From Flavobacteriaceae bacterium (GTDB lineage: Bacteria > Bacteroidota > Bacteroidia > Flavobacteriales > Flavobacteriaceae), in NCBI GenBank assembly GCA_947373225.1, contig CANBWX010000025.1:1-34211 (forward strand): a stretch of 34,211 bases of DNA, in the 5' to 3' direction. Under the pieces are notes generated by a model. It did not search any database, had not been told where the DNA came from, and saw only the letters and a program-made list of their open reading frames with translations. Positions 1,207 to 26,199 of the stretch are shown here, one piece after another. Each line of letters opens with the position of its first letter. Position 1 is the first letter of the stretch. Position numbers and translations under genes: made by a program.

Positions 1207-1238
1207 CAAATTTAGTTTTTTAGCCACGAATTACACAA
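1207..1238 (-). promoter_or_regulatory. Probable lpxB promoter (TTG-N21-TAAATTTG)
   Basis: On the minus strand TAAATTTG (1214-1207) matches the Bacteroidota -7 consensus TAnnTTTG, and TTG (1238-1236) lies 21 bases upstream. Transcription would begin just before the lpxB ATG at 1192, giving a very short leader. The TTG falls inside the second unit of the CAC(A/G)AATT repeat cluster. Inference from consensus only. Confidence 0.5.
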
Positions 1239-1256
1239 ATTTCCACAAATTAAATT
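1223..1256. repeat. Degenerate 9-10 base tandem repeat, CAC(G/A)AATT units
   Basis: Three successive units, CACGAATTA, CACAAATTTC and CACAAATTAA, start at 1225, 1234 and 1244. They lie in the spacer between the 90-residue membrane protein gene and lpxB. The units resemble the CACAGATT units at 1312-1340 in the same spacer, so this looks like a diverged copy of the same module. No coding potential is visible. Confidence 0.7.
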
Positions 1257-1310
1257 TAAGACTATAAAATTAATATCAGTATTCATTACAACTACCAAAA
1301 GAAAAACTTG

Positions 1311-1384
1311 CCACAGATTTCACAGATTCACACAGATTTTAGAAAAACACTAAAATTTTAAAAAAAATCTGTGTGAATCTGTGG
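1311..1384. repeat. CACAGATT tandem repeat with inverted copy (long hairpin)
   Basis: Three CACAGATT units begin at 1312, 1321 and 1331. The last two form a 20-base arm (1321-1340, CACAGATTCACACAGATTTT) that is exactly the reverse complement of 1364-1383, leaving a 23-base AT-rich loop. There is no long U tract immediately after either arm, so it is not a textbook terminator, although it could fold in RNA from either strand. It sits between two minus-strand genes. Confidence 0.85.
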
Positions 1385-1423
1385 TAAAAAAAATCATAGT
1401 AGAAGTTATACCTATTCATAAAT

Positions 1424-1696
1424 TTATGCAAAAAAAGTAAGGATGGCAATACTAATTACAGCCAAAACCACACCGCGAGCCATGATTTCTTTATTCAATT
1501 TTAATAAAATGGCAAAAGCAATTAAATCAAGAATAGAACCTAATGTCATTATTTTTCCAAGCTTGCCTTCTGATTTCATGATTTGAATTCCTGAAATAAA
1601 ACTAAAGTTAGTAAAAAGAGTAATGAATAAATAACTCCCAAGAACGGAGGCTAGAATTCCAATTACAAAACCAATTAAAATGTCTTTTTTAGTCAT
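1424..1696 (-). CDS. Small three-helix membrane protein, unknown function
   Basis: A 90-residue hydrophobic protein with about three membrane segments (roughly residues 7-30, 49-66 and 72-90) and short, mostly basic connecting stretches (KSEGKLGK near 41-48, LNKE near 67-70). The ATG at 1696 lies 8 bases inside the end of surE, so translation is probably coupled to surE. I recognise no named domain. The position between surE and lpxB suggests a housekeeping locus, but membership in an operon says nothing firm about function. The overlap with surE, a proper ATG and the clean membrane topology support it being a real gene. Confidence 0.8.
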   Translation of the reverse strand: MTKKDILIGFVIGILASVLGSYLFITLFTNFSFISGIQIMKSEGKLGKIMTLGSILDLIAFAILLKLNKEIMARGVVLAVISIAILTFFA

Positions 1697-2468
1697 TCCA
1701 TTTCCAAGTGTTAAGTTGCTGAATAGCGTGGTGTGCGGTCAAGTCAAATTGCACCGGAACCACCGAAATATAGCCATTGGCAAGAGCCCATTCATCTGTA
1801 TCTTCGCCTTTATCTTGGTTTACAAATTCTCCGGTTAGCCAATAATAATCGCGCCCTTGAGGCGTTTTTCGCTTGTCAAATTTTTCCATCCAAAGTGCTT
1901 TCGCTTGACGGCAAATTTTAATTCCCTGAATTTCATTCTCTTTCAACTTTGGGAAATTCACGTTCAAAACTACACTTTCTGGAAGTCCATTTTCTAAAAC
2001 TTCTAAAGTGATTGTCTTGATAAATGATTTTATTTGGTCAAAATCAGCATTCCAATCATAATCGGACAAGGAGAAACCGATGGCAGGAATGCCTTCGATG
2101 CCCGCTTCAACTGCGGCACTCATCGTTCCTGAATAAATCACATTGATAGAGGAATTGGAACCGTGATTAACGCCCGAAACACATAAATCAGGTTTTCGTT
2201 TCAGGATTTCGTTTACGGCCAGTTTTACACAATCTACAGGAGTTCCAGAGCAACTATATTCTAGAATGGCATCGTTTTCCTTCGATATTTTATTGATATA
2301 CAAAGTATCATTTATGGTTATAGAATGACCCGTTGCGCTTTGAGCACTGTCAGGAGCCACAACCACAACTGTTCCTATTTCTGCCATAACGGCAATCAAA
2401 GTCCTGATTCCAGGAGCCGAAATTCCATCATCGTTGGTTACCAGGATTAAAGGTTTGGCTTTTTTCAT
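1689..2468 (-). CDS. surE: 5'/3'-nucleotidase SurE
   Basis: SurE is a metal-dependent phosphatase acting on nucleoside monophosphates and short polyphosphates, linked to stationary-phase survival. The family N-terminus ILVTNDDGISAPG gives the metal-binding Asp pair at residues 13-14, and the conserved SGTPVDCV and SGVNHGSN blocks follow. An upstream in-frame extension to 2531 exists, but the ATG at 2468 places the motif where the family has it and gives 259 residues, near the usual 250-260. The last 8 bases overlap the start of the downstream membrane protein gene. The gene diverges from prc across a 195-base spacer. Confidence 0.95.
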   Translation of the reverse strand: MKKAKPLILVTNDDGISAPGIRTLIAVMAEIGTVVVVAPDSAQSATGHSITINDTLYINKISKENDAILEYSCSGTPVDCVKLAVNEILKRKPDLCVSGVNHGSNSSINVIYSGTMSAAVEAGIEGIPAIGFSLSDYDWNADFDQIKSFIKTITLEVLENGLPESVVLNVNFPKLKENEIQGIKICRQAKALWMEKFDKRKTPQGRDYYWLTGEFVNQDKGEDTDEWALANGYISVVPVQFDLTAHHAIQQLNTWKWND

Positions 2469-2536
2469 AGGGATATTTTCAAATTTACTTTTAAATAGAA
2501 TTAGGTAAAACAAAACGGTTTTCGCAAACAAAGAAA

Positions 2537-2544
2537 CAAAATTA
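2537..2544 (-). promoter_or_regulatory. Possible surE -7 element (TAATTTTG)
   Basis: Minus-strand TAATTTTG fits TAnnTTTG and would give a leader of about 60 bases to the ATG at 2468. No TTG at 17-23 bases upstream is seen. A second match, TAAATTTG at 2487-2480 with TTG 23 bases upstream, is so close to the ATG that it would leave almost no leader. The choice between them is open. Confidence 0.35.
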
Positions 2545-7099: not shown

Positions 7100-9034
7100 T
7101 TATTTTTGTTTGGTTGAATCTACTTTTATTGTTTGAACTGGAATTGTGTTTTTTGAAATAGAATCTATTATAGCTTTTCTTTCTATTTTACTAGCTGCTG
7201 AGCTACCACCTAATTTTGCATACTGACTTTGTAAACTTTTCGCAAGGATTCGTGTTTCCAAATCGGTTCTTGTAATTTTTTTTCTAAGATATTTTTCTAT
7301 CATCAAACTGGCAATTGGCCCAGCAATTGCCGCTCCAAATCCTCCGTTTTCTACTAATATGGCTATGGCAATTTTTGGATTATCTTTTGGTGCAAAAGCA
7401 ACAAAAATAGAGTGATCTTCAAGTTTTGTTCTTACACCATTAATTTTTGCATAATTTTCGGCAGTTCCGGTTTTACCACAAATATCTATCCCTTGAACTC
7501 GTAACGCACTTGCTGTTCCTAAATTGTAAACATCAAATAAACCATCAATCATAGGTTTAAAATACTTTTTGTCTACTGTGGTAATATGTTTTGTTGTAAA
7601 GCGGGTATCAATTTTTTCGCCTTTAATTTTCTTGATGATATGAGGCGTGTAATAATATCCTTCATTAGCAACTGCCGACATCATATTTGCAAGTTGAATA
7701 GGTGTTGCTAAAACTTCACCTTGCCCAATTCCGTTTGAAACGATAGTAGTACCTCTCCATCCACCATTAGGATACATCTTTTTGTAAGTCTTTGAATCTG
7801 GAATTTTTCCTTTTTTCCCTGTTGGTAAATCATATCCCATAAATTGTCCTAATCCAAAACTTTTCACATGCTTACTCCAAATATCAACAGATTCTGATGG
7901 ATTTACATATTTATTTATAGTTCTCATATAAATGTTTTCAAAATAGGTATTACAGGATTCATAAATACCATTATGTAAATGCATCATACCACCATGACAA
8001 TGGCATTTTATAAATCGTCCTTTTAAATAATAGCCATGATTACAGGCAAAAGCAGTTTGTTCATCTATTGCTTCTTCTTGAAGAGCAGCAAGACCAACCA
8101 TAATTTTAAATGGAGAGCCAGGAGGATATTCAGCTAGTAATCCTCTATCATAAAGCGGCTTAGCAATAGAATCTCTATATAAAAGAGTGTAATTTTTAGA
8201 TCTTTGGCGACCCACTAATATTGAAGGATCGTATGATGGGGCAGTTACAAGAGCCAAAATCTCACCAGTTTTAGGTTCTATAGCAACGATTCCACCTCTT
8301 TTATTAATCATTAATTCTTCGCCATATTTTTGAAGTTCCGCATCAATTGTCAAATTGATATCTTCACCTTGAACGGCAATTGTATCATATCTTCCTTCAT
8401 TATAAGAACCAATTTCACGATTGTATTTGTCTTTCTGAAAATATTTTACGCCTTTTACACCTCGTAATATTTCTTCATAACTTTCCTCAACTCCTTGTTT
8501 TCCTATTAAATCACCATTATTGTAATAAGGGTTTTTTTCAACAACTTTTTCGTTTGCTTGTGTTATAAAACCAAAAACATTTGCCCCATAATTTACTTGA
8601 TAATCACGTAGAGAACGTTTTTGAAAATAAAAGCCTTCAAATTTTCGAATTTTTTCCTGAAAAGCTGCAAAATCACTTTTGTTCAATTGAGATAAAAATA
8701 CCGATGGCAATCTCGGGCTATATACTTTGGCTTTTGCCATTATTTTATTAAAATCTTCTTTTGTAATATTTAATAATTGGCAAAATTGCAAAGTGTCTAA
8801 TCTTTTTACATCCTTTGGGATTACCATAATATCATATGAAGGCTGATTGGCAACTAGTAGCTTTCCATTTCTATCGTAGATATAACCTCTTTCGGGATAA
8901 TCATATTTTATTTTTATGGCATTATTGTCCGACTTTAATTTGTAAGTATCATCAATAATTTGCAAATAGAATATCCGTATTACTAGCAATAATGCCGCAA
9001 TAATTATAAGTGAAGGAAGCAACACTTTTCTCAT
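7100..9034 (-). CDS. mrdA: Penicillin-binding protein 2 (elongasome transpeptidase)
   Basis: Class B PBP that cross-links peptidoglycan during cell elongation with RodA. The 644-residue protein has an N-terminal membrane helix (about 5-25), a dimerisation/pedestal domain, and a transpeptidase domain with SPFK (Ser307 nucleophile, Lys310), SCN (360-362) and KTG (521-523). A striking Cys/His-rich segment, CNHG at 331-334 and KCHCHGG at 343-349 plus His352 and His354, lies directly before the SxN motif. Its first four bases overlap the end of mreD, so the two are probably translationally coupled. The C-terminal tail after about 590 is basic and Ser-rich. Confidence 0.96.
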   Translation of the reverse strand: MRKVLLPSLIIIAALLLVIRIFYLQIIDDTYKLKSDNNAIKIKYDYPERGYIYDRNGKLLVANQPSYDIMVIPKDVKRLDTLQFCQLLNITKEDFNKIMAKAKVYSPRLPSVFLSQLNKSDFAAFQEKIRKFEGFYFQKRSLRDYQVNYGANVFGFITQANEKVVEKNPYYNNGDLIGKQGVEESYEEILRGVKGVKYFQKDKYNREIGSYNEGRYDTIAVQGEDINLTIDAELQKYGEELMINKRGGIVAIEPKTGEILALVTAPSYDPSILVGRQRSKNYTLLYRDSIAKPLYDRGLLAEYPPGSPFKIMVGLAALQEEAIDEQTAFACNHGYYLKGRFIKCHCHGGMMHLHNGIYESCNTYFENIYMRTINKYVNPSESVDIWSKHVKSFGLGQFMGYDLPTGKKGKIPDSKTYKKMYPNGGWRGTTIVSNGIGQGEVLATPIQLANMMSAVANEGYYYTPHIIKKIKGEKIDTRFTTKHITTVDKKYFKPMIDGLFDVYNLGTASALRVQGIDICGKTGTAENYAKINGVRTKLEDHSIFVAFAPKDNPKIAIAILVENGGFGAAIAGPIASLMIEKYLRKKITRTDLETRILAKSLQSQYAKLGGSSAASKIERKAIIDSISKNTIPVQTIKVDSTKQK

Positions 9035-9537
9035 CGTCTATTTGGCTTTATAAGATATATTATAATAACGCTGATGGTAATTGTAAATATGGAGCTTAAT
9101 AATGTTCGAATTAAAACATCTAAGAAAAAGCTTATTTGAAATGCTTCAAACAAGAATAAAATAAAATGATGAATTAGAACCGAAAACAGTATAAATGAGA
9201 ACCTTTCTGGTGTTAATACATCAATCAATTTTACAGTTTGGTACTCATAGCTTAAACCAAAAGAAAATCGAAATAAATAGGGTCTATAATAAGCCAAAAC
9301 CACACAAGCCATCGTATGAATTCCACCAGAGTTGCTAAATAAATCCATTATAAATCCAAGAAGAAAACTGGCTAAAAGTAGGCCAGATTTATTGCTGTTT
9401 ACTGGGTATAAAATGATGAATAGAATATATGGAAATGGACTTATATAGCCCAAAAAATTCATGTTGTTAAAAATGATAATTTGAACCGTCAATAGCAGTA
9501 TAAACCGAAAAACATTGGTGAATAAGGTACTATTCAT
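9031..9537 (-). CDS. mreD: Rod shape-determining protein MreD
   Basis: A small polytopic inner-membrane protein of the elongasome that partners MreC. The 168-residue sequence is hydrophobic throughout with about five to six helices and matches the usual MreD length; sequence conservation in this family is low, so the call leans on position between mreC and mrdA. It overlaps mreC by 8 bases at its start and mrdA by 4 bases at its end, a tightly coupled arrangement. ATG at 9537. Confidence 0.9.
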   Translation of the reverse strand: MNSTLFTNVFRFILLLTVQIIIFNNMNFLGYISPFPYILFIILYPVNSNKSGLLLASFLLGFIMDLFSNSGGIHTMACVVLAYYRPYLFRFSFGLSYEYQTVKLIDVLTPERFSFILFSVLIHHFILFLFEAFQISFFLDVLIRTLLSSIFTITISVIIIYLIKPNRR

Positions 9538-11492: not shown

Positions 11493-11498
11493 AACAAA

Positions 11499-14441: not shown

Positions 14442-14444
14442 GAA

Positions 14445-14487: not shown

Positions 14488-14527
14488 CTTTTTATAACAT
14501 CGCTGATTCTTACTATTTGTCACGCTG

Positions 14528-14569
14528 GAAGCGTCTCAGAGTGTTAGAGCAATTTGATTTAGACGCTTC
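14528..14569. repeat. Inverted repeat GAAGCGTCT / AGACGCTTC
   Basis: Perfect 9-base arms at 14528-14536 and 14561-14569 enclose a 24-base loop; TTGTAAAAAAA follows. It lies in the permease to small-protein spacer, 21 bases before the next ATG. It lacks a U tract in the plus direction, so I do not call it a terminator. Confidence 0.6.
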
Positions 14570-14590
14570 TTGTAAAAAAATAAAATTAGA

Positions 14591-14821: not shown

Positions 14822-14903
14822 TATCAGCGCAATTGTAAACAATAAAACCCTAGATGTACAGTTTTCAATAGGAAATCATTGAAACCTGAGAGCATATATT
14901 TTG

Positions 14904-14934
14904 ACCAAAAAAAATCCCGATTATCTCGGGATTT
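14904..14934 (-). terminator. Intrinsic terminator after accD
   Basis: Arms 14912-14920 (AAATCCCGA) and 14926-14934 form a perfect 9-pair stem with loop TTATC. Read on the minus strand it ends in a run of eight U. It begins seven bases after the accD stop. Confidence 0.9.
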
Positions 14935-14940
14935 CTTAAT

Positions 14941-15795: not shown

Positions 15796-15802
15796 ATTAG
15801 TA

Positions 15803-15860
15803 GAATTATGAATTATGAATTATGAGTTATGAATTAGCTTGTAATTCATAACTCATAATT
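15803..15860. repeat. GAATTAT tandem heptamers with inverted copy (hairpin)
   Basis: Five 7-base units run head to tail from 15803 to 15837 (GAATTAT three times, GAGTTAT, then GAATTAG). After a 5-base loop (15837-15841) the 19 bases 15842-15860 are the exact reverse complement of 15818-15836. It fills nearly all of the 71-base fbaA-accD spacer, so any fbaA-accD read-through transcript would carry the hairpin. No U tract. Confidence 0.9.
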
Positions 15861-15866
15861 TGAAAT

Positions 15867-16934: not shown

Positions 16935-16976
16935 TGTAATTTTTTTTTAAATTGTTTTTTGTTGTTTTATAGTTTG

Positions 16977-16984
16977 CAAAAATA
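16977..16984 (-). promoter_or_regulatory. Probable fbaA -7 element (TATTTTTG)
   Basis: Minus-strand TATTTTTG matches TAnnTTTG, between the tamL stop and the fbaA ATG, and would give a leader of about 35 bases rich in A. No exact TTG lies 17-23 bases upstream. Confidence 0.5.
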
Positions 16985-16998
16985 AGAATTATTTAGCA

Positions 16999-19563
16999 TT
17001 AGAAAGGATAATTTATTCCAAAATTAAAAACGGAGTGACCAAAATTATAATCTTGAAACCATTGTTTCCCTATTTCACTGGCGGGATTGTAGGTTTTAAA
17101 CCCAAAATCAAATCGAACTACAAAAAAACTTAAGTCATATCGTAAGCCAAATCCTGAACCTACAGCGATTTCGCTCAGATCGGAAATGCCTGAAAAAGTC
17201 GATTTTTTATCGGTTACGCCGTCAAAAACATTCCAAATATTCCCCGCATCTATAAATAAAGCTCCTTTTAAACTGTTTAATACTTTAAAACGATATTCGG
17301 CACTCATCGCAATTTTCATATTGGCCTCATTGAAATCATTTATGGTAGTACTGCTTCCAGGACCTAAACGGTAGGGTTGCCATGCTCTATTGTCATTAGA
17401 TCCGCCAGAAAAATAACTTCTTGAAAAAGGAATGTAATTCGAATTTCCATAAGGAATGGCAATGCCAAAAAAGGCTCTAACGGCAAATACCTTTTCTTTG
17501 GATAAATCCCAATGTTTGATATAATCGAATTCTGCTTTTACGTATTCAGAATATTCTAAATTAAAAATTTTGTAATTGCCATTCTGGTCTTTTGGTAGGT
17601 TTGCAGCACCAGAAATTAAGGATAAAAGGGAACCTGCTGATTCTATTTTTGTTTTAAATTGGTAAAAATTATTATCCTGTAGATCTGTTTTCGTTGTTTT
17701 TGTATAAGTAAAATTTGTAGCAAAAATGAAATCATTTTCGGTTAATCGAACTCTTCGTTCTTCAATACTGTTAAGGGCAATATAATCTTTATTAGAAGGA
17801 GTCAATGCTGGGTTATTTCCCGATAAAGCGTCATTGGTAAATCCTGTAGTTCCTTTCCATATTATTAAATTTCTATCATTAATATTATTGAAATAAGAAG
17901 AATTTGAATTATATAATTTTCCTAATTTATTTAAAGCAGTATAGGACGAACTATAGATGTTGTAATAATTCTCAGGATTTAAATTCCGTACATATTGAAT
18001 ATTAAACAAATCAAAACGAGCTGAATTATTCTTTTTCGGTGTCCAATTATAAGATAATGCACCCGTTAAATTTTCTTTATCTAAACCAATATTTTTTTGA
18101 GTTGATAATCCTGTAGAAATAAGTGTTGAAGGAATCATACTTTTGGGAATGATTTTTTCTGTACTAAAAGGAAACCATAATCGGGGAATATTTAGTTTTA
18201 AATCTACTCCATATTCCGAGACATTAAAAAAATTATTATTTGGATTTGCTAAATCTTTTGAAGCACCAATATTTCCACGTCCTGAAATTTCTAGTGTTTC
18301 TGCGCCATTAAATACGTTTCGAATCGTTTCAGATATACTTGCAGCAATCCCAATGTCTTGTATATTTGAATGAGTAACATCAAACGAGGTTCCAAAACTA
18401 TATTTTTTTCGCGGTGTCAAATATACTTTTGCAATCAAGGACTGAGCGGTAGAATCTCTTGGATCTACTTCATATAAAATGGTTGGATAGTTAAAAATCT
18501 TAAGATTGTTCAAATAACGTGAGGTAAGAACAGTTTTATTATCGGCAAATAAGCCTCCTTTTGTAATAAATACGGCATCGGTAATGGCACGTGGTTTATA
18601 TTTTAATTTTTCGTGACTGTATAAATGAAAATTATTAAAAGAAGTACTGTCAGTAATTGGCGAATTAATTTTGGTTGGTGAATAATCGGTATAAATATTT
18701 ACATCACTTATTTTAAATATTTTAAAAGGTTCTGTTCTTGTGGAATCCTTTTCTAAATAAGAATAATTTTCTATTACTAAATTGATATTTACTTTGTTCT
18801 TTTTAGTGAGTGTATCTACATCAAAAGTTACGTTATTGGGCTGAAAATGATATACACCATTGTTTCTAAAATAAGTTGTAATTCGATTTTTTTCATTCTC
18901 AAAATCTTGTGTTTTATATTGATTTCCTGATTTTAAAAACGAATTTGCACTATTTGCCCGATACATTGAATCCAAAGCTTGAGTATGAATACTTGTTTTC
19001 AAAGTATCTAAAAGAAACGGATTTCCGGTAGTTATGCTGTATTTTATTTTTGCTTTTTTAGGACTAAGGCTATCTAGTTTGTAATTTGCTTTTACTTTAA
19101 AATAGCCGTCGTTAAAGTAAAAATATTTTAATCTCACAATCGATTTATTAGTTTTAACTGTATCAACAATCACTGGAGGTTCCCCAGTTTTTTTAAGGAA
19201 ATCATGTATGCCATGATACCAAAAGGATTTTCCAAGTCTGTCGACTTGTTTTGCCGACAACCACTTTGATTTTCGTTCATATTTACCAGGATTGTTTTTA
19301 AACTTTGCTTGATAAGTGGAGTCTGGATTGGGATTAGCAAGGTTAAATAAATTCAATCTCAGGCGATAACCCAGAATGTCAGTATTCTGTTTTTGATACA
19401 ATTGATTGGTAACAATTTCGCTCTTTATAGCCTTGTTGTTTACTATAATTTCATTTTTAGTAAGTAGTTGTTTTCCGTTTGGAACTCGTCTTACGGTATT
19501 ACAGGCCGAGATAATTATTCCTATTAGAATAAATGTTGCTATTTTTGTGCTAATCTTTTTCAA
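16999..19563 (-). CDS. tamL: TamL-type BamA/TamA-family outer membrane lipoprotein
   Basis: Omp85-superfamily protein expected to work with TamB in outer-membrane biogenesis. With the TTG start at 19563 the product is 854 residues and opens with a textbook lipoprotein signal, KKISTKIATFILIGIIISAC, lipobox Cys at 21. POTRA-like repeats occupy about 25-400 and a 16-stranded barrel the C-terminal half, ending in a terminal Phe (NFGINYPF). Lipidation of a TamA homologue is known from Bacteroidota, where the protein is called TamL. There is no ATG in this region, and the longer frame (TTG at 19617) would start upstream of the promoter's -7 element. The gene is divergent from trmH with the two 5' regions overlapping; porT and menG lie beyond. 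Confidence 0.88.
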   Translation of the reverse strand: MKKISTKIATFILIGIIISACNTVRRVPNGKQLLTKNEIIVNNKAIKSEIVTNQLYQKQNTDILGYRLRLNLFNLANPNPDSTYQAKFKNNPGKYERKSKWLSAKQVDRLGKSFWYHGIHDFLKKTGEPPVIVDTVKTNKSIVRLKYFYFNDGYFKVKANYKLDSLSPKKAKIKYSITTGNPFLLDTLKTSIHTQALDSMYRANSANSFLKSGNQYKTQDFENEKNRITTYFRNNGVYHFQPNNVTFDVDTLTKKNKVNINLVIENYSYLEKDSTRTEPFKIFKISDVNIYTDYSPTKINSPITDSTSFNNFHLYSHEKLKYKPRAITDAVFITKGGLFADNKTVLTSRYLNNLKIFNYPTILYEVDPRDSTAQSLIAKVYLTPRKKYSFGTSFDVTHSNIQDIGIAASISETIRNVFNGAETLEISGRGNIGASKDLANPNNNFFNVSEYGVDLKLNIPRLWFPFSTEKIIPKSMIPSTLISTGLSTQKNIGLDKENLTGALSYNWTPKKNNSARFDLFNIQYVRNLNPENYYNIYSSSYTALNKLGKLYNSNSSYFNNINDRNLIIWKGTTGFTNDALSGNNPALTPSNKDYIALNSIEERRVRLTENDFIFATNFTYTKTTKTDLQDNNFYQFKTKIESAGSLLSLISGAANLPKDQNGNYKIFNLEYSEYVKAEFDYIKHWDLSKEKVFAVRAFFGIAIPYGNSNYIPFSRSYFSGGSNDNRAWQPYRLGPGSSTTINDFNEANMKIAMSAEYRFKVLNSLKGALFIDAGNIWNVFDGVTDKKSTFSGISDLSEIAVGSGFGLRYDLSFFVVRFDFGFKTYNPASEIGKQWFQDYNFGHSVFNFGINYPF
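19540..19547 (+). promoter_or_regulatory. Possible trmH -7 element (TATTTTTG)
   Basis: TATTTTTG on the plus strand lies within the signal-peptide codons of tamL, antisense to it, about 53 bases before the methyltransferase ATG. No TTG at the proper distance. It is the only good match upstream of this gene. Confidence 0.35.
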
Positions 19564-19583
19564 ATGTTCGGAAATATTTAATT

Positions 19584-19617
19584 CAAAAGTACATTTTTTA
19601 TGGTTAGTAAAAACCAA
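19584..19617 (-). promoter_or_regulatory. Probable tamL promoter (TACTTTTG)
   Basis: Minus-strand TACTTTTG (19591-19584) matches TAnnTTTG, with TTG (19617-19615) 23 bases upstream, the upper end of the usual spacing. It implies a transcript start near 19578 and supports the TTG start codon at 19563. Confidence 0.5.
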
Positions 19618-20331
19618 ATAAAACTTATAACGAGTTTACAACAAAAAAAATATCGTGTAGCCAATCAATTATTTTTTGCCGAAGGTATAAAGGTAATTCA
19701 AGAATTGGTAGAATCAAATTTTGAACTGGTTCATTTGTACACAACCCAAAATGATTTTGATGAAGTTTCGAACGCCAAAAAAACGATAATTAACGAAAGT
19801 GATTTAAAAAAAATCAGCGCTTTGGCAACACCAAATACCTGTTTGGCACTTTTTAAAATCCCTGCCAATAAAGAAATCGTCGAATCAGGTTTGATTATTG
19901 CTCTTGACTCTATACGTGATCCGGGAAATCTGGGGACAATATTGCGTTTGTGCGACTGGTTTGGTATCAATCAATTAATTTGTTCCAAGGAAACAGTGGA
20001 TATTTACAACCCAAAAGTGGTTCAGGCAACCATGGGGTCTATCGCGCGCGTAAATGTAAATTATATAGATTTGAACGCTTTTGTAAGTGAAACGGAATTA
20101 CCTGTTTTTGGTACTTTTATGGATGGAAAAAACATCTATAAATCAGTTTTGCCTCAAGAAGGAATTATTATTATGGGCAATGAAGCCAATGGAATTTCAC
20201 CTGAATTAGAATTATTAGTAAAAAATAAACTCACAATTCCTCGTTTTGGCAGTCTTCAAAAAACCGAAAGCCTCAATGTAGCCACCGCCACCGCTATTAT
20301 TTTGAGTGAGTTCAGGAGGAATAATAGTTAG
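19600..20331 (+). CDS. SpoU/TrmH-family RNA 2'-O-methyltransferase
   Basis: A 243-residue SPOUT methyltransferase that uses S-adenosylmethionine to methylate ribose 2'-OH groups of rRNA or tRNA. It has an N-terminal substrate-binding region (about 1-95) starting with KNQIKLITSLQQKKYR, then the knotted domain with LDSIRDPGNLGTILR (motif 1, about 108-122), MGNEANGIS (motif 2) and LNVATATAIILSEF (motif 3). The target RNA cannot be assigned from sequence; RlmB-like 23S rRNA activity is a possibility. ATG at 19600 lies upstream of the tamL start, so the two divergent genes share 5' sequence. It ends four bases from the convergent porT stop. Confidence 0.92.
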   Translation: MVSKNQIKLITSLQQKKYRVANQLFFAEGIKVIQELVESNFELVHLYTTQNDFDEVSNAKKTIINESDLKKISALATPNTCLALFKIPANKEIVESGLIIALDSIRDPGNLGTILRLCDWFGINQLICSKETVDIYNPKVVQATMGSIARVNVNYIDLNAFVSETELPVFGTFMDGKNIYKSVLPQEGIIIMGNEANGISPELELLVKNKLTIPRFGSLQKTESLNVATATAIILSEFRRNNS

Positions 20332-20335
20332 TTTT

Positions 20336-21064
20336 TTAATGAAAAGTAAAATTGATAAAAACGGCTCTGCTTTTTAGTGATTGAATATTGCTTGTCCAAG
20401 GACTTGCAGGATCTTTATCGCGAATTAGTTCATCATTAATTCCGAAAACACCTCTTATTGATGGCGAGAATATAAAATATTCCGAAAAAATATCAATACC
20501 AAAACCCATTTCATAATTAGTTGTCCAAGGCTTTACTCTAAAGCGTTGTTCTAGATTATCATCGACTGATTTTGCATTGCTTGACAAATTTAATGTTGCC
20601 GAAGCACCTCCCAACAAGTAAGGACGAATATTTCCTGTTCTAGCCGAAGAAAATTTCAGTAATAACGGAAAATGAATATAAGTGCTGTTTACTTCTCTAA
20701 GTTTATCACTCGAATTAGGATATGTTGCAGTTGGGTTGGTGAAATAACTTGTGGGATAATAAAAATCTCGTGTTGTATAATATAATCCCGGTTCAAAACG
20801 CAAATCAATATATTCTTGAAGCTTCAAATCGGCAACAAGTCCCACATTAAAACCAGTGCTTTTCTTTATTGCGATATCTGGCACAGGAGTTTTGTAAACT
20901 ACCTTAAAATCATAAGAGTTAAATCCCAAATAGAATCCAAAATAGAGTTTTTGCTTTTGAAAATTCTCTAAATTAATAATGGGATCTTTGCTAAATATGC
21001 CTTTAGTTTGTGCTAATCCATTGAAGGTTATTGCAAATAGAAGTATTACAATTATTTTTTTCAT
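20336..21064 (-). CDS. porT: PorT/SprT-type outer-membrane protein (type IX secretion, gliding)
   Basis: A 242-residue protein with a cleavable signal peptide (MKKIIVILLFAITFNGLAQ) and an alternating, Tyr/Phe-rich beta-barrel pattern ending in an aromatic-containing C-terminal strand (AVFINFTFH). It resembles PorT, a component required for the Bacteroidota type IX secretion system (SprT in gliding flavobacteria), in size, N-terminal YFGFYLGFNSYDF segment and in lying directly after menG/ubiE, the arrangement I associate with porT. It starts one base after the menG stop and is surely co-transcribed. A generic outer-membrane beta-barrel (PF13568) protein is the alternative. Confidence 0.8.
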   Translation of the reverse strand: MKKIIVILLFAITFNGLAQTKGIFSKDPIINLENFQKQKLYFGFYLGFNSYDFKVVYKTPVPDIAIKKSTGFNVGLVADLKLQEYIDLRFEPGLYYTTRDFYYPTSYFTNPTATYPNSSDKLREVNSTYIHFPLLLKFSSARTGNIRPYLLGGASATLNLSSNAKSVDDNLEQRFRVKPWTTNYEMGFGIDIFSEYFIFSPSIRGVFGINDELIRDKDPASPWTSNIQSLKSRAVFINFTFH

Positions 21065-21065
21065 A

Positions 21066-21797
21066 TTATTTTTTCGAAGCTGAGTAAATTGTTGCTACAC
21101 CAAATGTTTGTGGCATTGCAACAACATCTATAAACCCAATTTTTCTCAAAATATTGTTTAAGGCTTCTCCATAAGGAAATGCTGCCGCCGATTCGGATAA
21201 ATAGCCATAAGCAACATTGTCTTTTGAAAATAATTTCCCGATAATTGGCAAAATATTTTCACTATAAAAAGTATAACCTTGTTTGTAAGGCGTTTTATCT
21301 GGTACTGAAGTTTCAAGAATTACAAAAACACCATTTGGTTTTAAAACTCTTAAAATTTCTGTCAATCCTTTTTCAAGATTTTCAAAATTCCGAACTCCAA
21401 AAGCTACTGTAATAGCATCAAAATGATTGTCTTCAAAAGGCATATTTTCAGAATCGGCCAAAACCATTTCGATTGTATCAGATAAGTTTTTTTCTTGAAT
21501 TTTTTTCTTCCCCACTTCAAGCATTCCAGCCGAAATATCTAATCCAATGATTTCATTTGCTTTGGTTTGAGCCATCAAAATAGCCAAATCTCCCGTTCCT
21601 GTTGCAATATCCAGAATTGTTTTAGGATTTGTTTTGCTTACAATTTGCAAAACTTTCTTGCGCCATTTTACGTCTATTCCAAAAGAAATTACCCGATTAA
21701 GGTTATCGTAATTTCCTGAAATGGTATCAAACATTTGGGCAACTTGTTCTTTCTTACTTAATGACGAATCTTTATAAGGAGTTATATTCTTTGACAT
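21066..21797 (-). CDS. ubiE: Demethylmenaquinone methyltransferase (UbiE/MenG)
   Basis: SAM-dependent C-methyltransferase finishing menaquinone synthesis; flavobacteria use menaquinone, so MenG activity is the relevant one. The 243 residues include the family start ([27 protein letters not shown]), the SAM loop [12 protein letters not shown] (about 62-73), and the [10 protein letters not shown] block (about 129-138). ATG at 21797. A TACCTTTG -7 element separates it from folA, and porT follows with one base between. Confidence 0.96.
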
Positions 21798-21813
21798 TTT
21801 CTAAATTTTGGAA

Positions 21814-21821
21814 CAAAGGTA
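21814..21821 (-). promoter_or_regulatory. Probable ubiE-porT -7 element (TACCTTTG)
   Basis: Minus-strand TACCTTTG matches TAnnTTTG and lies 17 bases before the ubiE ATG, in the 48-base spacer after folA. No clear TTG upstream. Confidence 0.45.
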
Positions 21822-21845
21822 AATTAGATTTTTGAATAATGCGTC

Positions 21846-22331
21846 TTATTTTTTTCTTGTAAATGTTTGAAACGTATAATCAAAGAGGTGTTTTTCGTCT
21901 TTTTGATTAAAAACTTCGCTTGTTAGTTTCCAAATATTCAAATCGATTTCAGGAAAATAAACATCGGCTTCAAACGAATGATGAACACATGTAATGTCAA
22001 GTTGATCCGCTAAATAGATAGATTGTTTGTAAATTTCGCCTCCGCCAATGATGAAAATATTTTCATTTTTTGGACAAATAGCAATAGCTTTTTCTAAATT
22101 TTCGACAACTATGCAACCTTCTTTTTCATATTCTTTTTGTCGAGAAATAATAACATGAGTTCTGTTTGGAAGCGGTTTAGGGAAACTTTCAAAGGTTTTT
22201 CTTCCCATAATAATATAATGTCCCGATGTAATTTCTTTGAAACGCTTGAAGTCATTAGGCAAATGCCAAAGTAAATCATTGTTTTTTCCTAGTGCATTGT
22301 TTTCGGCGACTGCCGCAATCAAAATAATCAT
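21846..22331 (-). CDS. folA: Dihydrofolate reductase
   Basis: Reduces dihydrofolate to tetrahydrofolate with NADPH, closing the cycle opened by thymidylate synthase (thyA lies 1.1 kb upstream on the same strand). The 161 residues match the family: N-terminal IILIAAVAENNALG, catalytic Asp27 in HLPNDFKRFK, NADPH-binding MGRKTFES, and IIGGGEIY. ATG at 22331. It begins three bases after the 2TM gene and is therefore part of that operon. Confidence 0.97.
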   Translation of the reverse strand: MIILIAAVAENNALGKNNDLLWHLPNDFKRFKEITSGHYIIMGRKTFESFPKPLPNRTHVIISRQKEYEKEGCIVVENLEKAIAICPKNENIFIIGGGEIYKQSIYLADQLDITCVHHSFEADVYFPEIDLNIWKLTSEVFNQKDEKHLFDYTFQTFTRKK

Positions 22332-22334
22332 TTT

Positions 22335-22676
22335 TTATTGAGGTTTAATAGAGGAATCTTCTTCGATCTGTGTTTGTAATTGGCTAATTTTTCTTTTTTG
22401 TTGAGTAACAAGTCGTTCTATTTGTTCTTTTTCCCAGTTTTTATTCATGAAACGATCTGTTATAAAAACCTTTATAAAATGAAGAATAAACAAAAATGTC
22501 CATGTTGTAATTACCCAAAGAGACCAATTCGATTCAAATCCGAAAACCTTAAAATGGTTGCCAAGAGTTAAAAAGACACTTCCTAATAGAAATAAAACAA
22601 AGTGAAAATAGAGACTTTTTTTCTGGTTTAATCTTTTTCGAGCATATTCGTATTGCTCATATTGTTCGTTTTCCAT
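22335..22676 (-). CDS. 2TM domain-containing protein
   Basis: A 113-residue protein with the 2TM domain (PF13239 type): a Tyr/Arg-rich lead-in (YEYARKRLNQKK), two membrane helices (about 23-43 and 52-75) and a basic/acidic tail with HFIKVFITDRFMNKNWEKEQIERLV followed by a coiled-coil-like segment. The function is not established for the family; in Flavobacteria such domains also occur near histidine kinases of the LytS type. The ATG at 22676 is preferred over the preceding TTG at 22679. It is followed after three bases by folA. TACCTTTA at 22702-22695 is a one-mismatch -7 candidate. Confidence 0.9.
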   Translation of the reverse strand: MENEQYEQYEYARKRLNQKKSLYFHFVLFLLGSVFLTLGNHFKVFGFESNWSLWVITTWTFLFILHFIKVFITDRFMNKNWEKEQIERLVTQQKRKISQLQTQIEEDSSIKPQ

Positions 22677-22803
22677 CAAGAGAAATTTAGTTTATAAAGG
22701 TAAAATTTATTTTTAATTGTCACTATTATGATTCATGATAATTTATTAAGAAAACGTTTTCTATTTTGAGATTAAAATTTTAAATAGGTATAAATTAAGA
22801 AAA

Positions 22804-22827
22804 TCCTTAAAAATTAAGGAAGTTTTT
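22804..22827 (+). repeat. Short hairpin with U run in the 2TM-CBM48 divergent spacer
   Basis: TCCTTAA (22804-22810) and TTAAGGA (22814-22820) pair across a 3-base loop, followed by AGTTTTT. The shape is terminator-like on the plus strand, but no gene ends upstream of it on that strand. It may be a leader or regulatory hairpin, or chance in an AT-rich spacer. The rest of the 237-base spacer shows no gene. Confidence 0.35.
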
Positions 22828-22913
22828 AACATAGTCCTAAAACTTCATCTTAAATATTGAATGTTCGAAAATATTTGTTTTCTTTGTCCCATAAATCTAA
22901 AAATGAAATAGTT

Positions 22914-23210
22914 ATGTCAATAAAGAAACAATTTATAAAAACAAAACCGGTTTGTAAAGTAACATTTTCGGTAGAAGCCAAAGAAGCTAATCTTGCTTCA
23001 GTTGTAGGGGATTTCAATAATTGGAATCCAGCAGATGGAGAATTATCAAAATTGAAAAACGGAACCTTCAAAGGTGTTTTCGATTTGCCAAAAGACGCAT
23101 CGTACGAATTTAAGTACGTAATTGATGGTGCTTTCGTAAACGAGCCAGAATCTGATTCTTTTAAATGGAATGATTTTGCAGGAACTGAAAACGGTGTTTT
23201 AGAACTTTAA
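22914..23210 (+). CDS. Stand-alone CBM48/isoamylase early-set domain protein
   Basis: A 98-residue protein that is almost entirely one glycogen-binding-type (CBM48, AMPK-beta-like) domain: CKVTFSVEAKEANLASVVGDFNNWNP, then GTFKGVFDLPKDASYEFKYVIDG. The Trp and Asn residues in DFNNWNP are the usual carbohydrate-contact positions. It lacks any catalytic domain and has no signal peptide, so a cytoplasmic role in binding glucan or regulating a partner is plausible but unproven. The ATG at 22914 gives the family-like start MSIKKQFIK; the frame continues upstream to a TTG at 22857. It stands alone on the plus strand between minus-strand genes and ends at a strong terminator. Confidence 0.88.
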   Translation: MSIKKQFIKTKPVCKVTFSVEAKEANLASVVGDFNNWNPADGELSKLKNGTFKGVFDLPKDASYEFKYVIDGAFVNEPESDSFKWNDFAGTENGVLEL

Positions 23211-23220
23211 TTATATCCTA

Positions 23221-23248
23221 AAAAAATCCGCTGCAAAGCGGATTTTTT
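23221..23248. terminator. Bidirectional intrinsic terminator
   Basis: Perfect 12-pair stem (23221-23232 with 23237-23248) closed by a GCAA tetraloop, with A-rich and U-rich ends on both strands. It serves the CBM48 gene on the plus strand and can stop thyA transcripts on the minus strand. Confidence 0.92.
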
Positions 23249-23263
23249 GTTTTTATCCTTTTT

Positions 23264-23291
23264 ATTGGTTTATAAACCAATTTTTATTTTT
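23264..23291 (+). terminator. Second hairpin: perfect 18-base palindrome plus T run
   Basis: ATTGGTTTATAAACCAAT (23264-23281) is fully self-complementary and is followed by TTTTATTTTTT. It lies 15 bases past the first terminator and may back it up. A protein-binding palindrome is the alternative. Confidence 0.5.
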
Positions 23292-23411
23292 TCTATTACT
23301 AAAGTATATTCTACATCGGATAGATAAGTTTTTTGTGAATTCATTTCGAAAACGTCTCTAAATTTCTAGAAGTATTTCGGAACTAAATCTGTTTACGATA
23401 AATCCAAAATC

Positions 23412-24236
23412 TTACACCGCAACACTTCCTTTTATAAGTGGATGTGGATCATAACCTTCGAGTGTGAAATCTTCAAAAGTAAAATCGAAAATATCTTTTA
23501 CGGCAGGATTCAAAATCATTTTTGGTAGCGATTTCGTTTCTCGAGACAATTGTAATTCAACTTGCTCAAAATGATTGTTGTAAATGTGTGCGTCTCCAAA
23601 AGTGTGAATAAATTCACCAACTTCTAGCCCGCAAACTTGAGCAATCATCATGGTAAAAAGAGCGTACGAAGCAATATTAAATGGAACACCAAGGAAAATG
23701 TCAGCGCTTCGTTGGTATAATTGGCATGACAGTTTTCCGTCCGAAACGTAGAATTGAAAAAAGGCGTGACAAGGAGGTAAAGCCGCTTTGTTATTGGCTA
23801 CATTTTCCGAAAATGATTTTGAATTATCAGGCAAAACCGAAGGATTCCAAGCCGAAACTAACATTCTACGACTATTTGGATTTGTTTTTAATTCTTTTAT
23901 AAGATCGGCAATTTGATCAATTTCTTCGCTGTTCCAGTTGCGCCATTGATGACCGTAAACAGGACCTAGATTTCCGTTTTCATCTGCCCAAGCATCCCAA
24001 ATTTTAACGCCGTTTTCTTGAAGATATTCAATGTTGGTATCGCCTTTTAAGAACCAAAGTAGTTCGTATATAATTGATTTTAAATGTAGTTTTTTGGTGG
24101 TAACCATCGGAAAACCTTCGCTTAAATCAAATCTCATTTGGTAACCAAAAACACTTTTTGTTCCCGTTCCTGTTCGATCTCCTTTTTGATTTCCGTTTTC
24201 TAAAACGTGTTGTACTAAGTCTAGGTATTGTTTCAT
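23412..24236 (-). CDS. thyA: Thymidylate synthase
   Basis: Makes dTMP from dUMP using methylene-tetrahydrofolate, yielding dihydrofolate for FolA. The 274 residues show the classical ThyA signatures: [24 protein letters not shown], the catalytic Cys156 in [12 protein letters not shown], and DAHIYNNH near 222-229. The protein is about ten residues longer than E. coli ThyA because of an insert just before the active-site Cys ([13 protein letters not shown]). ATG at 24236. The 118-base spacer upstream, after the bifunctional nuclease gene, holds two repeat elements and no full consensus promoter. Confidence 0.98.
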
Positions 24237-24249
24237 TCTTGGTTCAAAG

Positions 24250-24290
24250 GTTTAAAGTTTAAAGTTTAAAAGTTTTAGAACTTTAAACTT
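24250..24290. repeat. GTTTAAA tandem heptamers with inverted copy (hairpin)
   Basis: GTTTAAA is repeated three times head to tail (24250-24270). After a short spacer, AACTTTAAACTT (24279-24290) is the exact reverse complement of 24255-24266. It lies 13 bases upstream of thyA, in the spacer after the bifunctional nuclease gene, so a thyA transcript beginning upstream would carry it in its leader. Confidence 0.85.
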
Positions 24291-24328
24291 CAACATTCGT
24301 TAATCAAAATTAAAAAATTATTTTTTTG

Positions 24329-24353
24329 TTCCCCCTTCGGGGGTTAGGGGAGC
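24329..24353. repeat. GC-rich palindromic element (CCCCC-TTC-GGGGG)
   Basis: Five C, TTC, five G (24331-24343) followed by TTAGGGG. It begins two bases after the bifunctional nuclease stop, in minus-strand sense. Such G/C runs are out of keeping with the surrounding AT-rich DNA. I recall nearly identical sequences in intergenic regions of other Flavobacterium genomes. No long U run follows in the minus direction, so it is not a standard terminator. Confidence 0.7.
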
Positions 24354-24354
24354 T

Positions 24355-24975
24355 TTATCTTTTCGAAATCTCATCTCTAATCTTAGCCGCTTTTTCATAA
24401 TCTTCCTGTTCTACGGCGGTATCTAATAATTCGTTTAATTCCGTCAAACTATGGTTCGAATACGTTCCTCCAGATTGATTGCTTTCTTCACGACCAAAAG
24501 TCTCAGGGTTCGAAAGAATATCGTCTATTTCTTGAGAACCTTTATCGGGATCCAAAGGGTTGTTTTTCAAATAAATTCCGGCTTTGTCAAGGATGTTTTT
24601 ATAAGTAAAAATAGGTGCATTAAATCGTAATGCCAATGCAATCGCATCGGAAGTTCGAGCGTCTATAATTTCCTCAATTTTATCTCTTTCGCAAATGATA
24701 CTCGAATAAAAAACGCCATCAACCAGTTTATGAATAATGACTTGTTTGACCACAATATCAAACCGATCAGCAAAATTTTTGAATAAATCATGTGTTAAAG
24801 GACGTGGTGGTTTTATTTCTTTTTCCAAAGCAATTGCAATGGATTGAGCCTCGAAAGCGCCAATGACAATAGGCAATTTTCTTTCTCCGTCAACCTCGTT
24901 TAATATTAGAGCATAAGCTCCGTTTTGAGTTTGACTGTATGAAATCCCTTTTATAGATAATTTAACTAAGCTCAT
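24355..24975 (-). CDS. Bifunctional nuclease (DUF151) with C-terminal UVR motif
   Basis: A 206-residue protein with an N-terminal bifunctional-nuclease domain (DUF151, about 1-135: GISYSQTQNGAYALILNE, LPIVIGAFEAQSIAIALE, DARTSDAIALALRF) and a C-terminal UvrB/UvrC motif (about 172-206, LDTAVEQEDYEKAAKIRDEI). BFN-domain proteins of plants have been reported to have DNase and RNase activity; the bacterial role is not settled. Start is placed at the ATG 24975 (MSLVKLSIKG) because the longer frame runs through a TACTTTTG promoter-like element. It lies between etfA and thyA, all on the minus strand, with a terminator between it and etfA. Confidence 0.9.
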   Translation of the reverse strand: MSLVKLSIKGISYSQTQNGAYALILNEVDGERKLPIVIGAFEAQSIAIALEKEIKPPRPLTHDLFKNFADRFDIVVKQVIIHKLVDGVFYSSIICERDKIEEIIDARTSDAIALALRFNAPIFTYKNILDKAGIYLKNNPLDPDKGSQEIDDILSNPETFGREESNQSGGTYSNHSLTELNELLDTAVEQEDYEKAAKIRDEISKR

Positions 24976-24980
24976 AATTG

Positions 24981-24988
24981 CAAAAGTA
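24981..24988 (-). promoter_or_regulatory. Possible -7 element for the bifunctional nuclease gene (TACTTTTG)
   Basis: Minus-strand TACTTTTG matches TAnnTTTG and ends five bases before the ATG at 24975, so a transcript from it would be nearly leaderless. A second match, TATCTTTG at 25092-25085, lies in the loop of the upstream terminator and would give a leader of about 100 bases. Confidence 0.4.
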
Positions 24989-25066
24989 AAAAGCATCAAA
25001 TGCCTTATTTATGGATTGTTTTTTCTTGAAAAATATAAGTGCAATTTTAATCAAAAAACGGCAAAC

Positions 25067-25116
25067 AAAAAAGTTACCTACGAGCAAAGATACGAATATC
25101 TTGATAGTAGGTAACT
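25067..25116 (-). terminator. Composite hairpin terminator after etfA
   Basis: Outer arms AGTTACCTAC (25072-25081) and GTAGGTAACT (25107-25116) pair perfectly over 10 bases; on the minus strand the stem ends in six U. The 25-base loop contains a second hairpin, AAGATA-TTCG-TATCTT, and the sequence TATCTTTG, a -7 promoter match. U-rich sequence also follows on the plus strand. Confidence 0.8.
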
Positions 25117-25143
25117 ATATTTTTTGGGCGAAATTCTAAAAAA

Positions 25144-26112
25144 TCAGGAATGCGACGCTTTAAAAGCTTTTAGTTTTTCGGTTAATCGTGGTACAATATC
25201 AAAAGCATCTCCAACAACTCCATAATCGGCAACTTTAAAGAAAGGCGCTTCAGGATCGGTGTTAATTACCAGTTTTACTTTCGAAGAATTAATTCCTGCA
25301 ATGTGCTGAATCGCTCCAGAAATTCCGATGGCAATATATAAATTGGCAGCAACAGGTTTTCCTGTTTGACCTACGTGTTCAGAATGAGGCCTCCAATCTA
25401 AATCGGAAACTGGCTTTGAGCAGGCAGTTGCGGCGCCAAGAACGGCAGCTAAATCTTCGATCATTCCCCAGTTTTCTGGGCCTTTTAGTCCACGACCTCC
25501 AGAAACTACAATATCGGCATCGGCAATAGAAACTTTTCCAGAAACTTTTTCTACCGATTCTACTTTTATGCTGAAATCATTTTCTCCGATGTTTGGATTA
25601 AAATCTTCCTCGGCTAAATTGGATGCGCTTTCGAAAATTCCATAAGAGTTTTTGGCTAAACCAAGAATTTTTATGTCGGTTGAAATTTCGGTGATATTGA
25701 ATGCTTTGTTCGAAAACGAATTTCTTCGCACTTGAAAAGGCGATAGGCTTACTGGTAATCCGACAACATTCGAAGCAAAGCCAGCTTCTAGCGAAACGGC
25801 TACCAATGGCGAAAGATAAATGCTGTCTGTCGTCGAAGAAAGTATAATTAGTTTGGCGCTTTCTTTTTGTGCTGCCTGTTTGATGACATCGGCATACGCT
25901 TTGGCAGAAAAACCAGCCAATTTATCATTGGTAACTTTCAGGACTTTATCTACTCCATATTTCGATAATTCCGAAACATCGGTAGTATTTATGGTTACGG
26001 CTGTAACGGTTGTTCCTAAACTTTCGGCTACTTTTTTTGCATAAGAAGCTAATTCAAAAGCTATTTTTCGGAATTTCCCTTCTGCGGATTCTGCGTATAT
26101 TAGTATTGACAT
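25144..26112 (-). CDS. etfA: Electron transfer flavoprotein subunit alpha
   Basis: Large ETF subunit, binding FAD and passing electrons from acyl-CoA dehydrogenases and related enzymes to the respiratory quinone pool. The 322 residues have an N-terminal alpha/beta domain (about 1-190) and the C-terminal FAD domain with SGGRGLKGPENW (about 208-219), QTGKPVAANLYIAIGISGAIQH region (about 252-272) and NTDPEAPFFKVADYGVVGD (about 285-303). ATG at 26112. etfB is directly upstream on the same strand with an 82-base spacer that is nearly all repeat. A strong terminator follows. Confidence 0.97.
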   Translation of the reverse strand: MSILIYAESAEGKFRKIAFELASYAKKVAESLGTTVTAVTINTTDVSELSKYGVDKVLKVTNDKLAGFSAKAYADVIKQAAQKESAKLIILSSTTDSIYLSPLVAVSLEAGFASNVVGLPVSLSPFQVRRNSFSNKAFNITEISTDIKILGLAKNSYGIFESASNLAEEDFNPNIGENDFSIKVESVEKVSGKVSIADADIVVSGGRGLKGPENWGMIEDLAAVLGAATACSKPVSDLDWRPHSEHVGQTGKPVAANLYIAIGISGAIQHIAGINSSKVKLVINTDPEAPFFKVADYGVVGDAFDIVPRLTEKLKAFKASHS

Positions 26113-26119
26113 AATGATT

Positions 26120-26199
26120 TTTGATTTACGATATTTGATTTACGATATACAATTTGTGTTTCAATCCAAAATCGTATATTGCAATTCGTATATCTTATA
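26120..26199. repeat. 14-base tandem repeat with imperfect inverted copies
   Basis: TTTGATTTACGATA occurs twice without a gap (26120-26133, 26134-26147). Further on, TCGTATAT begins at 26172 and again at 26186, the same 14-base period, and its reverse complement differs by one base from ATTTACGA in the direct units. The module fills the etfB-etfA spacer, so an etfBA message would carry it between the two cistrons. Its last bases run slightly past the etfB stop. Confidence 0.8.

Follow-up and report, generated by a model that had tools for sequence, protein, structure and literature searches.

The 34,211-nt contig CANBWX010000025.1 of a Flavobacteriaceae bacterium (assembly GCA_947373225.1), here called the window, carries intergenic modules in which a short tandem repeat is usually accompanied by an inverted copy able to fold back on it. 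Judged by their sequence, these modules are an AT-rich, hairpin-forming variant of the known intergenic heptameric simple-sequence repeats. The best-supported new point is that their design is kept at two operon junctions, fba-accD and etfB-etfA, while the letters that fill it are exchanged. Our full explanation, in which slippage and inverted copying produce the modules and an intercistronic RNA hairpin is kept for its architecture, stands at about even odds (0.5). The original prediction for this DNA was partly confirmed as an observation and partly supported in its interpretation; its central statement, that what recurs is a design and not a sequence, has strong support and holds also between species at the same junction.

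Repeat modules at the same junctions in other species

Four window junctions were followed through other species of the genus, which is probably Flavobacterium, judging by the original prediction and by a Flavo-1 RNA in the window: fba-accD (a class II aldolase gene, then a carboxyl-transferase gene, called accD here), etfB-etfA (two ETF subunits), bfn-thyA (a bifunctional-nuclease protein, then thymidylate synthase) and hyp-lpxB. The etfB-etfA sample comprised 70 of 392 matching genomes of the genus, namely the 30 best and 40 others high in the list, some being skipped; the other three junctions were examined in the 30 best genomes, with one genome per species. The junctions had been picked for the window's modules, a bias confined to the window's own row. 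Repetition was scored at lags of 7, 8, 14 and 15 nt (p ≤ 0.05) against control lags, with spacers shorter than 30 nt or longer than 260 nt excluded. At fba-accD, 29 of 30 species showed repetition (control lags, 1), and the z-score of the RNA fold was −2 or lower in 29 of 30, with a median of −5.9. Repetition at etfB-etfA was found in 65 of 70 species (control lags, 2). The hyp-lpxB spacers showed it in 2 of 18 (control, 1), and the architecture present at lpxB in the window was not seen at this junction in the other species.

The words within this frame differ from species to species. The 30 accD spacers form ten clusters at two thresholds, and twelve at the strictest of three, with words that include GAATTAT, AGTGTTC, GTACGAA, TTTAGAT, GTTTAAA and ATTGATA. 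Placed on a tree of the accD and fba proteins, many branches of which are weak, the ten clusters require at least 19 changes in 30 rows. Arm labels came from crude regular expressions (GTCGAA also catches the common CAGT type), and the change counts of 39 and 30 are rough. Among pairs of etf loci, spacer identity did not track flank identity, the median being 0.69 in the 85% flank bin (60 pairs sampled) and 0.55 in the 95% bin (n = 22). Loci L088 and L095, for example, have flanks that are 94% identical and unlike spacers of 101 and 136 nt, and the spacers of L112 and L129, with 96% identical flanks, are alike just in the stretch before the ATG.

Part of this exchange may occur between species. 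When etf pairs at the same distance were compared, those with like spacers exceeded those with unlike ones by 3.4% in likeness over the first 50 nt of flank (289 versus 1,350 pairs, with pairs of middling likeness, pairs outside 78–95% flank identity and pairs with short flanks dropped), as if the spacer were exchanged together with a little of its flank. No such flank signal was present at accD (−0.4%; 27 and 346 pairs). The GAATTAT word was weakly commoner elsewhere in those genomes that use it at accD (9.9 versus 3.3 per Mb, p = 0.04, rising to p = 0.08 once the window's genome is left out), and for GTACGAA a clear repertoire pattern, judged by eye in 30 genomes, was not found.

A serious rival is that the modules are a neutral mutational by-product, made by slippage and template switching wherever DNA is free to vary and tolerated in short spacers, their polarity reflecting the removal of ATG and G before starts. 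The fast turnover fits this account, as do the arrays in divergent spacers and, in the relative G042, in convergent ones. Published work, of which we draw here and below on selected passages, has tied a period-7 excess to polymerase slippage (PMC4679880, PMC4692102), and variable-number tandem repeats (VNTRs) of F. psychrophilum vary between isolates at 8 of 12 loci (PMC4501049). Against a by-product speak the repetition that persists through sequence change (29 of 30 species at accD and 65 of 70 at etf, compared with 2 of 18 at hyp-lpxB) and the arms that match in every accD type; on balance we think it unlikely, if far from negligible.

Two further elements were met at these junctions. A GC-richer element (ACCCGAGAGCTTTRCTCGAA...GGCGRAGCA) lies within an AT-rich hairpin in 4 of the 70 etfB-etfA spacers (L071, L089, L102 and L126). 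At bfn-thyA, 7 of 26 species have an element of a different kind, a repeat with TTGCTTCGTT and CGCAAT that ends directly before the thyA start (spacers L167, L168, L169, L172, L175, L177 and L178).

Matched arms, polarity and the approach to the start codon

At accD and etf the two arms of a spacer belong together. In an arm-exchange test, halves were swapped between spacers with unlike halves and the native fold was compared with the swapped one; one 247-nt accD spacer was left out, and thyA (24 of 26) and lpxB (14 of 30) were restricted to spacers of 40–160 nt. The native fold was the better in 29 of 29 accD spacers, by a mean of 12.5 kcal/mol, in 70 of 70 etf spacers (mean 5.4 kcal/mol), in 23 of 24 thyA spacers (2.0) and in 6 of 14 at lpxB. 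Because the species are related, clusters are a safer unit than spacers, and the native fold was on average the better in each of the ten accD clusters. The GAATTAT type at accD allowed a closer look, with a consensus built from nine of its ten members (L146, at 247 nt, was omitted). In its 18-pair stem five pairs had compensating changes on both sides, a number reached in 1 of 500 shuffles of the nine sequences, and 92.6% of the cells were paired, as against 31–43% when the stem was slid.

Matched arms also bear on the idea that an RNA- or DNA-binding protein, of the S1, cold-shock or Csr-like kind, recognises the arrays as a row of sites, one per 7 nt. Such a protein would account for the regular 7-nt phasing and for places near starts and stops, and protein sites have been proposed for the TAACTGA repeats of Beggiatoaceae (PMC4679880). 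A binding array does not need matched arms, however, and about ten unlike word types at one junction would demand a protein without sequence preference, so that we consider this explanation improbable.

The arms are polar as well as matched. The 5′ half exceeded the 3′ half in its surplus of G over C in 29 of 29 accD, 62 of 70 etf, 21 of 24 thyA and 7 of 14 lpxB spacers, and the same polarity appears in the window's genome in 27 of 30 same-strand spacers with arrays versus 107 of 194 without (p = 1e-6 for the difference). The G-bearing arm comes directly after the stop codon, and a C-bearing, ATG-poor arm lies ahead of the next start. ATG occurred 0.20 times per 100 nt in the 3′ half of etf spacers and 0.14 times in that of accD spacers, with 0.67 and 2.56 in the respective 5′ halves. 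Mean pairing was 0.58 (etf) and 0.70 (accD) in mid-spacer, and over the 15 nt next to the ATG it dropped to 0.28 and 0.40, respectively. In F. johnsoniae, mRNA structure tunes starts and AUG is under-represented near them, according to the passages drawn on (PMC6847099); the low pairing and scarcity of ATG before the starts examined here are in line with this.

A frame-independent stop-codon screen, in which period 7 places each triplet in three frames and halts stray translation, was tried and rejected. In the 45 nt ahead of the ATG, stop triplets close every frame in 43 of 70 etf spacers (23.6 in shuffles) and in 23 of 30 accD spacers (12.4), yet closure of this kind follows from any 7-nt period. 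Moreover, stop triplets in the 3′ half are about equally common antisense and sense (9.5 versus 9.8 per 100 nt at etf, 10.5 versus 8.6 at accD), and the idea strikes us as very improbable indeed.

Excess in the genome, gene orientation and possible origin

Repetition was compared with shuffled spacers, and arrays were tabulated by gene orientation, in an 834-kb sample of the window's genome, comprising the window and 40 stretches of 20 kb. Genes were called simply, from open reading frames (ORFs), and the caller missed at least two ORFs of the window (9031–9537 and 22335–22679). Repeats stood far above the shuffles; the same-strand rule that went with them did not prove general. Exact repetition of at least 10 nt occurred in spacers 25, 22 and 11 times at lags of 7, 14 and 21, versus 1.15, 0.85 and 0.75 in shuffles. 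Smaller excesses were seen at lags of 8, 15 and 16 (6, 7 and 9), the remaining lags giving 0–4, and lag 7 in coding DNA, scaled to equal length, gave 1.5 versus the 25 in spacers. An inverted copy, ranked against 200 random spacer pieces, was present at p ≤ 0.01 in 12 of the 51 spacers with arrays (chance expectation, about 0.5) and at the 5% level in 15 of 51. Same-strand spacers of 40–160 nt had a median RNA fold z of −3.37 with an array (n = 30) and −0.8 without (n = 194).

By orientation, the window's genome had arrays in 43 of 359 spacers between same-strand genes, in 8 of 89 between divergent genes and in 0 of 64 between convergent ones (same-strand versus convergent, p = 0.001; versus divergent, p = 0.58). 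Leaving out the window and eight stretches that had been placed by hits, the counts were 26 of 272, 6 of 68 and 0 of 47. Two further genomes of the genus, G042 and G022, were sampled at 400 kb each. G042 showed the reverse of the window's genome, with arrays in 7 of 177 same-strand, 4 of 32 divergent and 5 of 23 convergent spacers; G022 had 3 of 177, 3 of 53 and 1 of 44, and two of its seven arrays sit in 6-kb gaps left by RNA genes, which are invisible to the gene caller. With the three genomes pooled, same-strand spacers (53 of 713) differed significantly neither from convergent (6 of 131, p = 0.35) nor from divergent ones (15 of 174, p = 0.63). The claim that divergent and convergent spacers lack arrays therefore stood for the convergent spacers of the window's genome and failed for its divergent spacers and for the convergent ones of G042. 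As a general rule, same-strand specificity was rejected on G042 and on the three-genome pool; it is at best a feature of the window's genome, and the argument from orientation is weak, given p = 0.58 against divergent spacers and pooled contrasts that are not significant.

Several observations weigh against a hairpin kept between cistrons. The same-strand bias is absent from G042 and from the pool. Array-less convergent spacers fold at least as strongly (median z −4.42, n = 44), so that a low fold z says little by itself. The fold at etfB-etfA is moderate, with a median z of −2.0 and values of −2 or lower in 35 of 70 species, and no consensus RNA stem emerged for the most frequent etf type, of whose 30 sequences 25 were aligned. 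At bfn-thyA, a junction found in 26 of 30 genomes, repetition was present in 16 of 25 (control, 0) and the median z was −0.9. Finally, outside this genome the G-strand polarity of GAATTAY arrays was not significant (30 of 54 loci in other organisms, with crude ORF calls); 80 of at least 117 stretches were used there, among which 20 were at an edge, 5 fell within an ORF and one lacked any ORF within 300 nt.

A role in the transcript between cistrons, as originally suggested, would nevertheless fit the matched arms, the polarity and the persistence; the slippage process suggested beside it fits too, and the two are not exclusive. In the sequence of events that we favour, local strand slippage would create direct repeats of 7 or 8 nt, and inverted copying, by template switching, would add the second arm. 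Between genes read in the same direction, and presumably transcribed together, the pair would be kept as an imperfect RNA hairpin whose C-bearing arm leaves the last 15 nt or so before the start less paired. Separating two cistrons, the hairpin would most likely set the stability of the upstream message and keep the downstream start open, and selection acting on architecture would leave the words replaceable, partly by recombination between species. We can sharpen this, tentatively and with somewhat less confidence, into position-conserved, sequence-interchangeable intercistronic hairpins: a selected architecture of two matched arms of 7-nt words, the G arm after the stop and the C arm before the start, would be held at given operon junctions, and its letters would be drawn from a limited genus-wide vocabulary, one word of which spans phyla, and be replaced arm by arm or whole, partly by recombination that carries tens of bases of flank. 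If this is true, screens for sequence conservation would miss such elements. Spacers whose architecture is kept while their letters change would be functional non-coding DNA invisible to conservation tests, and the position and polarity reported for G-rich heptamers would not depend on G-quadruplexes. The fba-accD junction, of which 30 species offer about ten dissimilar natural forms, makes it directly testable, in a laboratory Flavobacterium, whether heptamer repeats have any effect.

Short tandem intergenic repeats that include heptamers are also found in heterocystous cyanobacteria, as the STRR repeats. For Calothrix, three heptanucleotides are on record (PMC4692102). The closest published system is that of Rehm (2015), whose G-rich heptamers GGGAATC and GGGGA(C/T)T, as the passages drawn on describe them, populate non-coding DNA of Xanthomonas and Nostoc (PMC4692102). 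They lie mostly between aligned ORFs and are under-represented between divergent ones, their G strand following a stop or standing opposite a start; they occur as single arrays or as inverted pairs with possible stem-loops, 83% are kept between two Xanthomonas, and their role is given as unknown (PMC4692102). The modules described here share with them the 7-nt tandem excess in non-coding DNA (lag 7, 25 versus 1.15), the occurrence of arrays both singly and in inverted pairs (an inverted copy accompanies 12 of 51) and the nearer 5′ ORF along the G strand, seen in 36 of the 44 arrays of the window's genome with unequal G and C. Unlike them, the five window words are AT-rich and lack a G-tract, and so form no G-quadruplex; unlike words occupy the same place in other species, and the bias towards aligned ORFs is not general.

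MacGregor (2015) described TAACTGA direct repeats in Beggiatoaceae, cyanobacteria and some Bacteroidetes (PMC4679880). These too are intergenic heptamers near starts, comparable to the CAGTNTT family here (reverse complement ACTGAANA), and the same study has Bacteroidetes examples with mixed heptamers; in the parts drawn on, it treats one word, with one indirect repeat in the main genome (PMC4679880). Read directly, the five window spacers contain no exact TAACTGA array, the nearest being AGTGTTCAGTGTTCAGTTTACAG. In F. psychrophilum, VNTR typing loci include the intergenic 7-mers AAAGTTT, AATTCAT, AAATCTA and AATCTGA (PMC4501049), of which AAAGTTT equals the window's GTTTAAA and AATTCAT its GAATTAT on the other strand. 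Among 11 isolates the AAAGTTT, AAATCTA, AATTCAT and ATTTTAG loci were invariant; the repeats served for typing, and the passages concerned do not discuss hairpins or function (PMC4501049). The passages searched of an F. psychrophilum transcriptome paper do not mention such repeats (PMC9723704). The statement that a functional description is lacking thus holds as to function, but the kind of repeat is in print (PMC4692102, PMC4679880, PMC4501049). We recognised no description, in the open-licence literature, of an architecture kept while its words are replaced.

The words themselves reach far. They are unrelated to one another within the window, as had been noted, but belong to recurring families: a GAATTAT pattern matches 43 places in the window's genome, overlaps included (backwards pattern, 0), and word families recur in 50 of 61 genomes of the genus. 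With three mismatches allowed, many genomes of the genus also contain matches to the backwards pattern, which is an AT-rich heptamer in its own right. With at most one mismatch, a three-fold GAATTAY array was found in 37 of 198 Bacteroidota genomes (backwards pattern, 3). Exact four-fold GAATTAY arrays occur in at least 117 stretches of the genome collection, and the 80 matches listed include Bacteroidota, Cyanobacteria, Lentisphaerae, Treponema, Anaerolineae, Fibrobacter, Akkermansia, Vibrio and others. An inverted copy lay within 150 nt in 14 of these 80, versus 14 of 1,516 control pieces. At etf junctions of other genera, 21 of 31 spacers were at least 30 nt long and 11 of these 21 showed repetition (control, 0), with different words; two of them, L398 and L399, fold well (z −6.6 and −6.3). 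The fba and accD genes were adjacent in 14 of 30 loci of other genera, with repetition in none of the ten spacers tested. Two very long arrays were encountered: about 500 nt of alternating GAAGTAC and GAGGTAC heptamers at G138:C1:2063991-2064496, and about 89 copies of GAATTAC in Trichormus sp. NMC-1 (L268, 1656–2280).

Such recurrence within the genome, across the genus and beyond would also be expected of a mobile family, REP- or MITE-like, in which an IS200/RAYT-type transposase inserts hairpins between genes, and the window's genome has four Y1_Tnp (IS200/RAYT-type) matches (G000:C105, C32, C16 and C19; L438-L441). However, shared termini, target duplications or a common palindromic head across types were not seen in the spacers read, one type takes the place of another instead of being added to it, and the words are too different for one element. 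We regard mobility as improbable.

The modules of the window and their neighbours

The five window spacers were each tested against 300 dinucleotide shuffles, with fold z calculated from 100 of these. All five hold repeats at about the places originally reported; tandem repetition was significant in four (p = 0.003–0.007). An inverted copy had originally been described for four spacers; here the ungapped copy reached significance in three, was imperfect in a fourth and fell short of significance in the fifth.

The strongest module occupies spacer 15796–15866 (tandem p = 0.003, inverted p = 0.003, fold z −9.1). Its GAATTAT-type array of period 7 (15803–15836, 4.9 copies) adjoins the start of accD, a minus-strand gene at 14941–15795, and is the 3′ arm in the sense of the gene. 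The 5′ arm is an exact 19-nt inverted copy of 15818–15836 at 15842–15860, adjoining the stop of the aldolase gene (15867–16934). Spacer 26113–26194 (tandem p = 0.003, fold z −3.4) carries a 14-nt tandem array (TTTGATTTACGATA) at 26116–26148, ahead of the etfA start (25144–26112, minus), and an imperfect inverted copy of 26130–26155 (77%; ungapped p = 0.24) at 26169–26194, which terminates at the etfB stop (26195–26941, minus). In spacer 24237–24354 (tandem p = 0.007, fold z −2.1) a GTTTAAA array at 24250–24275, ahead of the thymidylate synthase start (23412–24236, minus), is joined by a near-exact 20-nt inverted copy of 24252–24271 (85%, p = 0.043) at 24274–24293.

Spacer 1193–1423, upstream of lpxB, holds an array of CACAGATT with a period of about 9 (1312–1339), for which the tandem test was not significant (p = 0.15), and an exact 20-nt inverted copy of 1321–1340 at 1364–1383 (inverted p = 0.003, fold z −3.9). 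In spacer 14442–14590 (tandem p = 0.003, inverted p = 0.076, fold z −0.1) an AGTGTTC array of 2.4 copies (14445–14461) lies 3′ of the stop of a plus-strand permease gene (13158–14441). Placement between same-direction genes is doubtful for this module, because accD, the first conserved gene beyond it, converges on the permease, unless a 76-aa plus-strand ORF with hydrophobic stretches between them (14591–14821) is real. This ORF was not matched in any of the remaining 29 accD loci, 18 of which were found to have the permease.

None of the flanking genes is out of the ordinary; besides those named, they encode LpxB, with an unmatched 90-aa ORF upstream, and a MacB/FtsX permease. The modules do not look like intrinsic terminators: none of 11 terminator-like sites in 14000–27000 fell on the four modules there, spacer 1193–1423 being outside the scan. 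At window positions 1223–1250, and in the lpxB spacers L196 and L205, stretches resembling GCCACGAATTACACAAATT occur with an inverted partner; they belong to a longer repeat family, found in some relatives and absent from others. Rfam 15 at gathering score gave no match on the modules, its sole match being a Flavo-1 RNA (RF01705, 66.1 bits) at 27037–27114 on the plus strand, upstream of a plus-strand ORF (27167/27203–28180).

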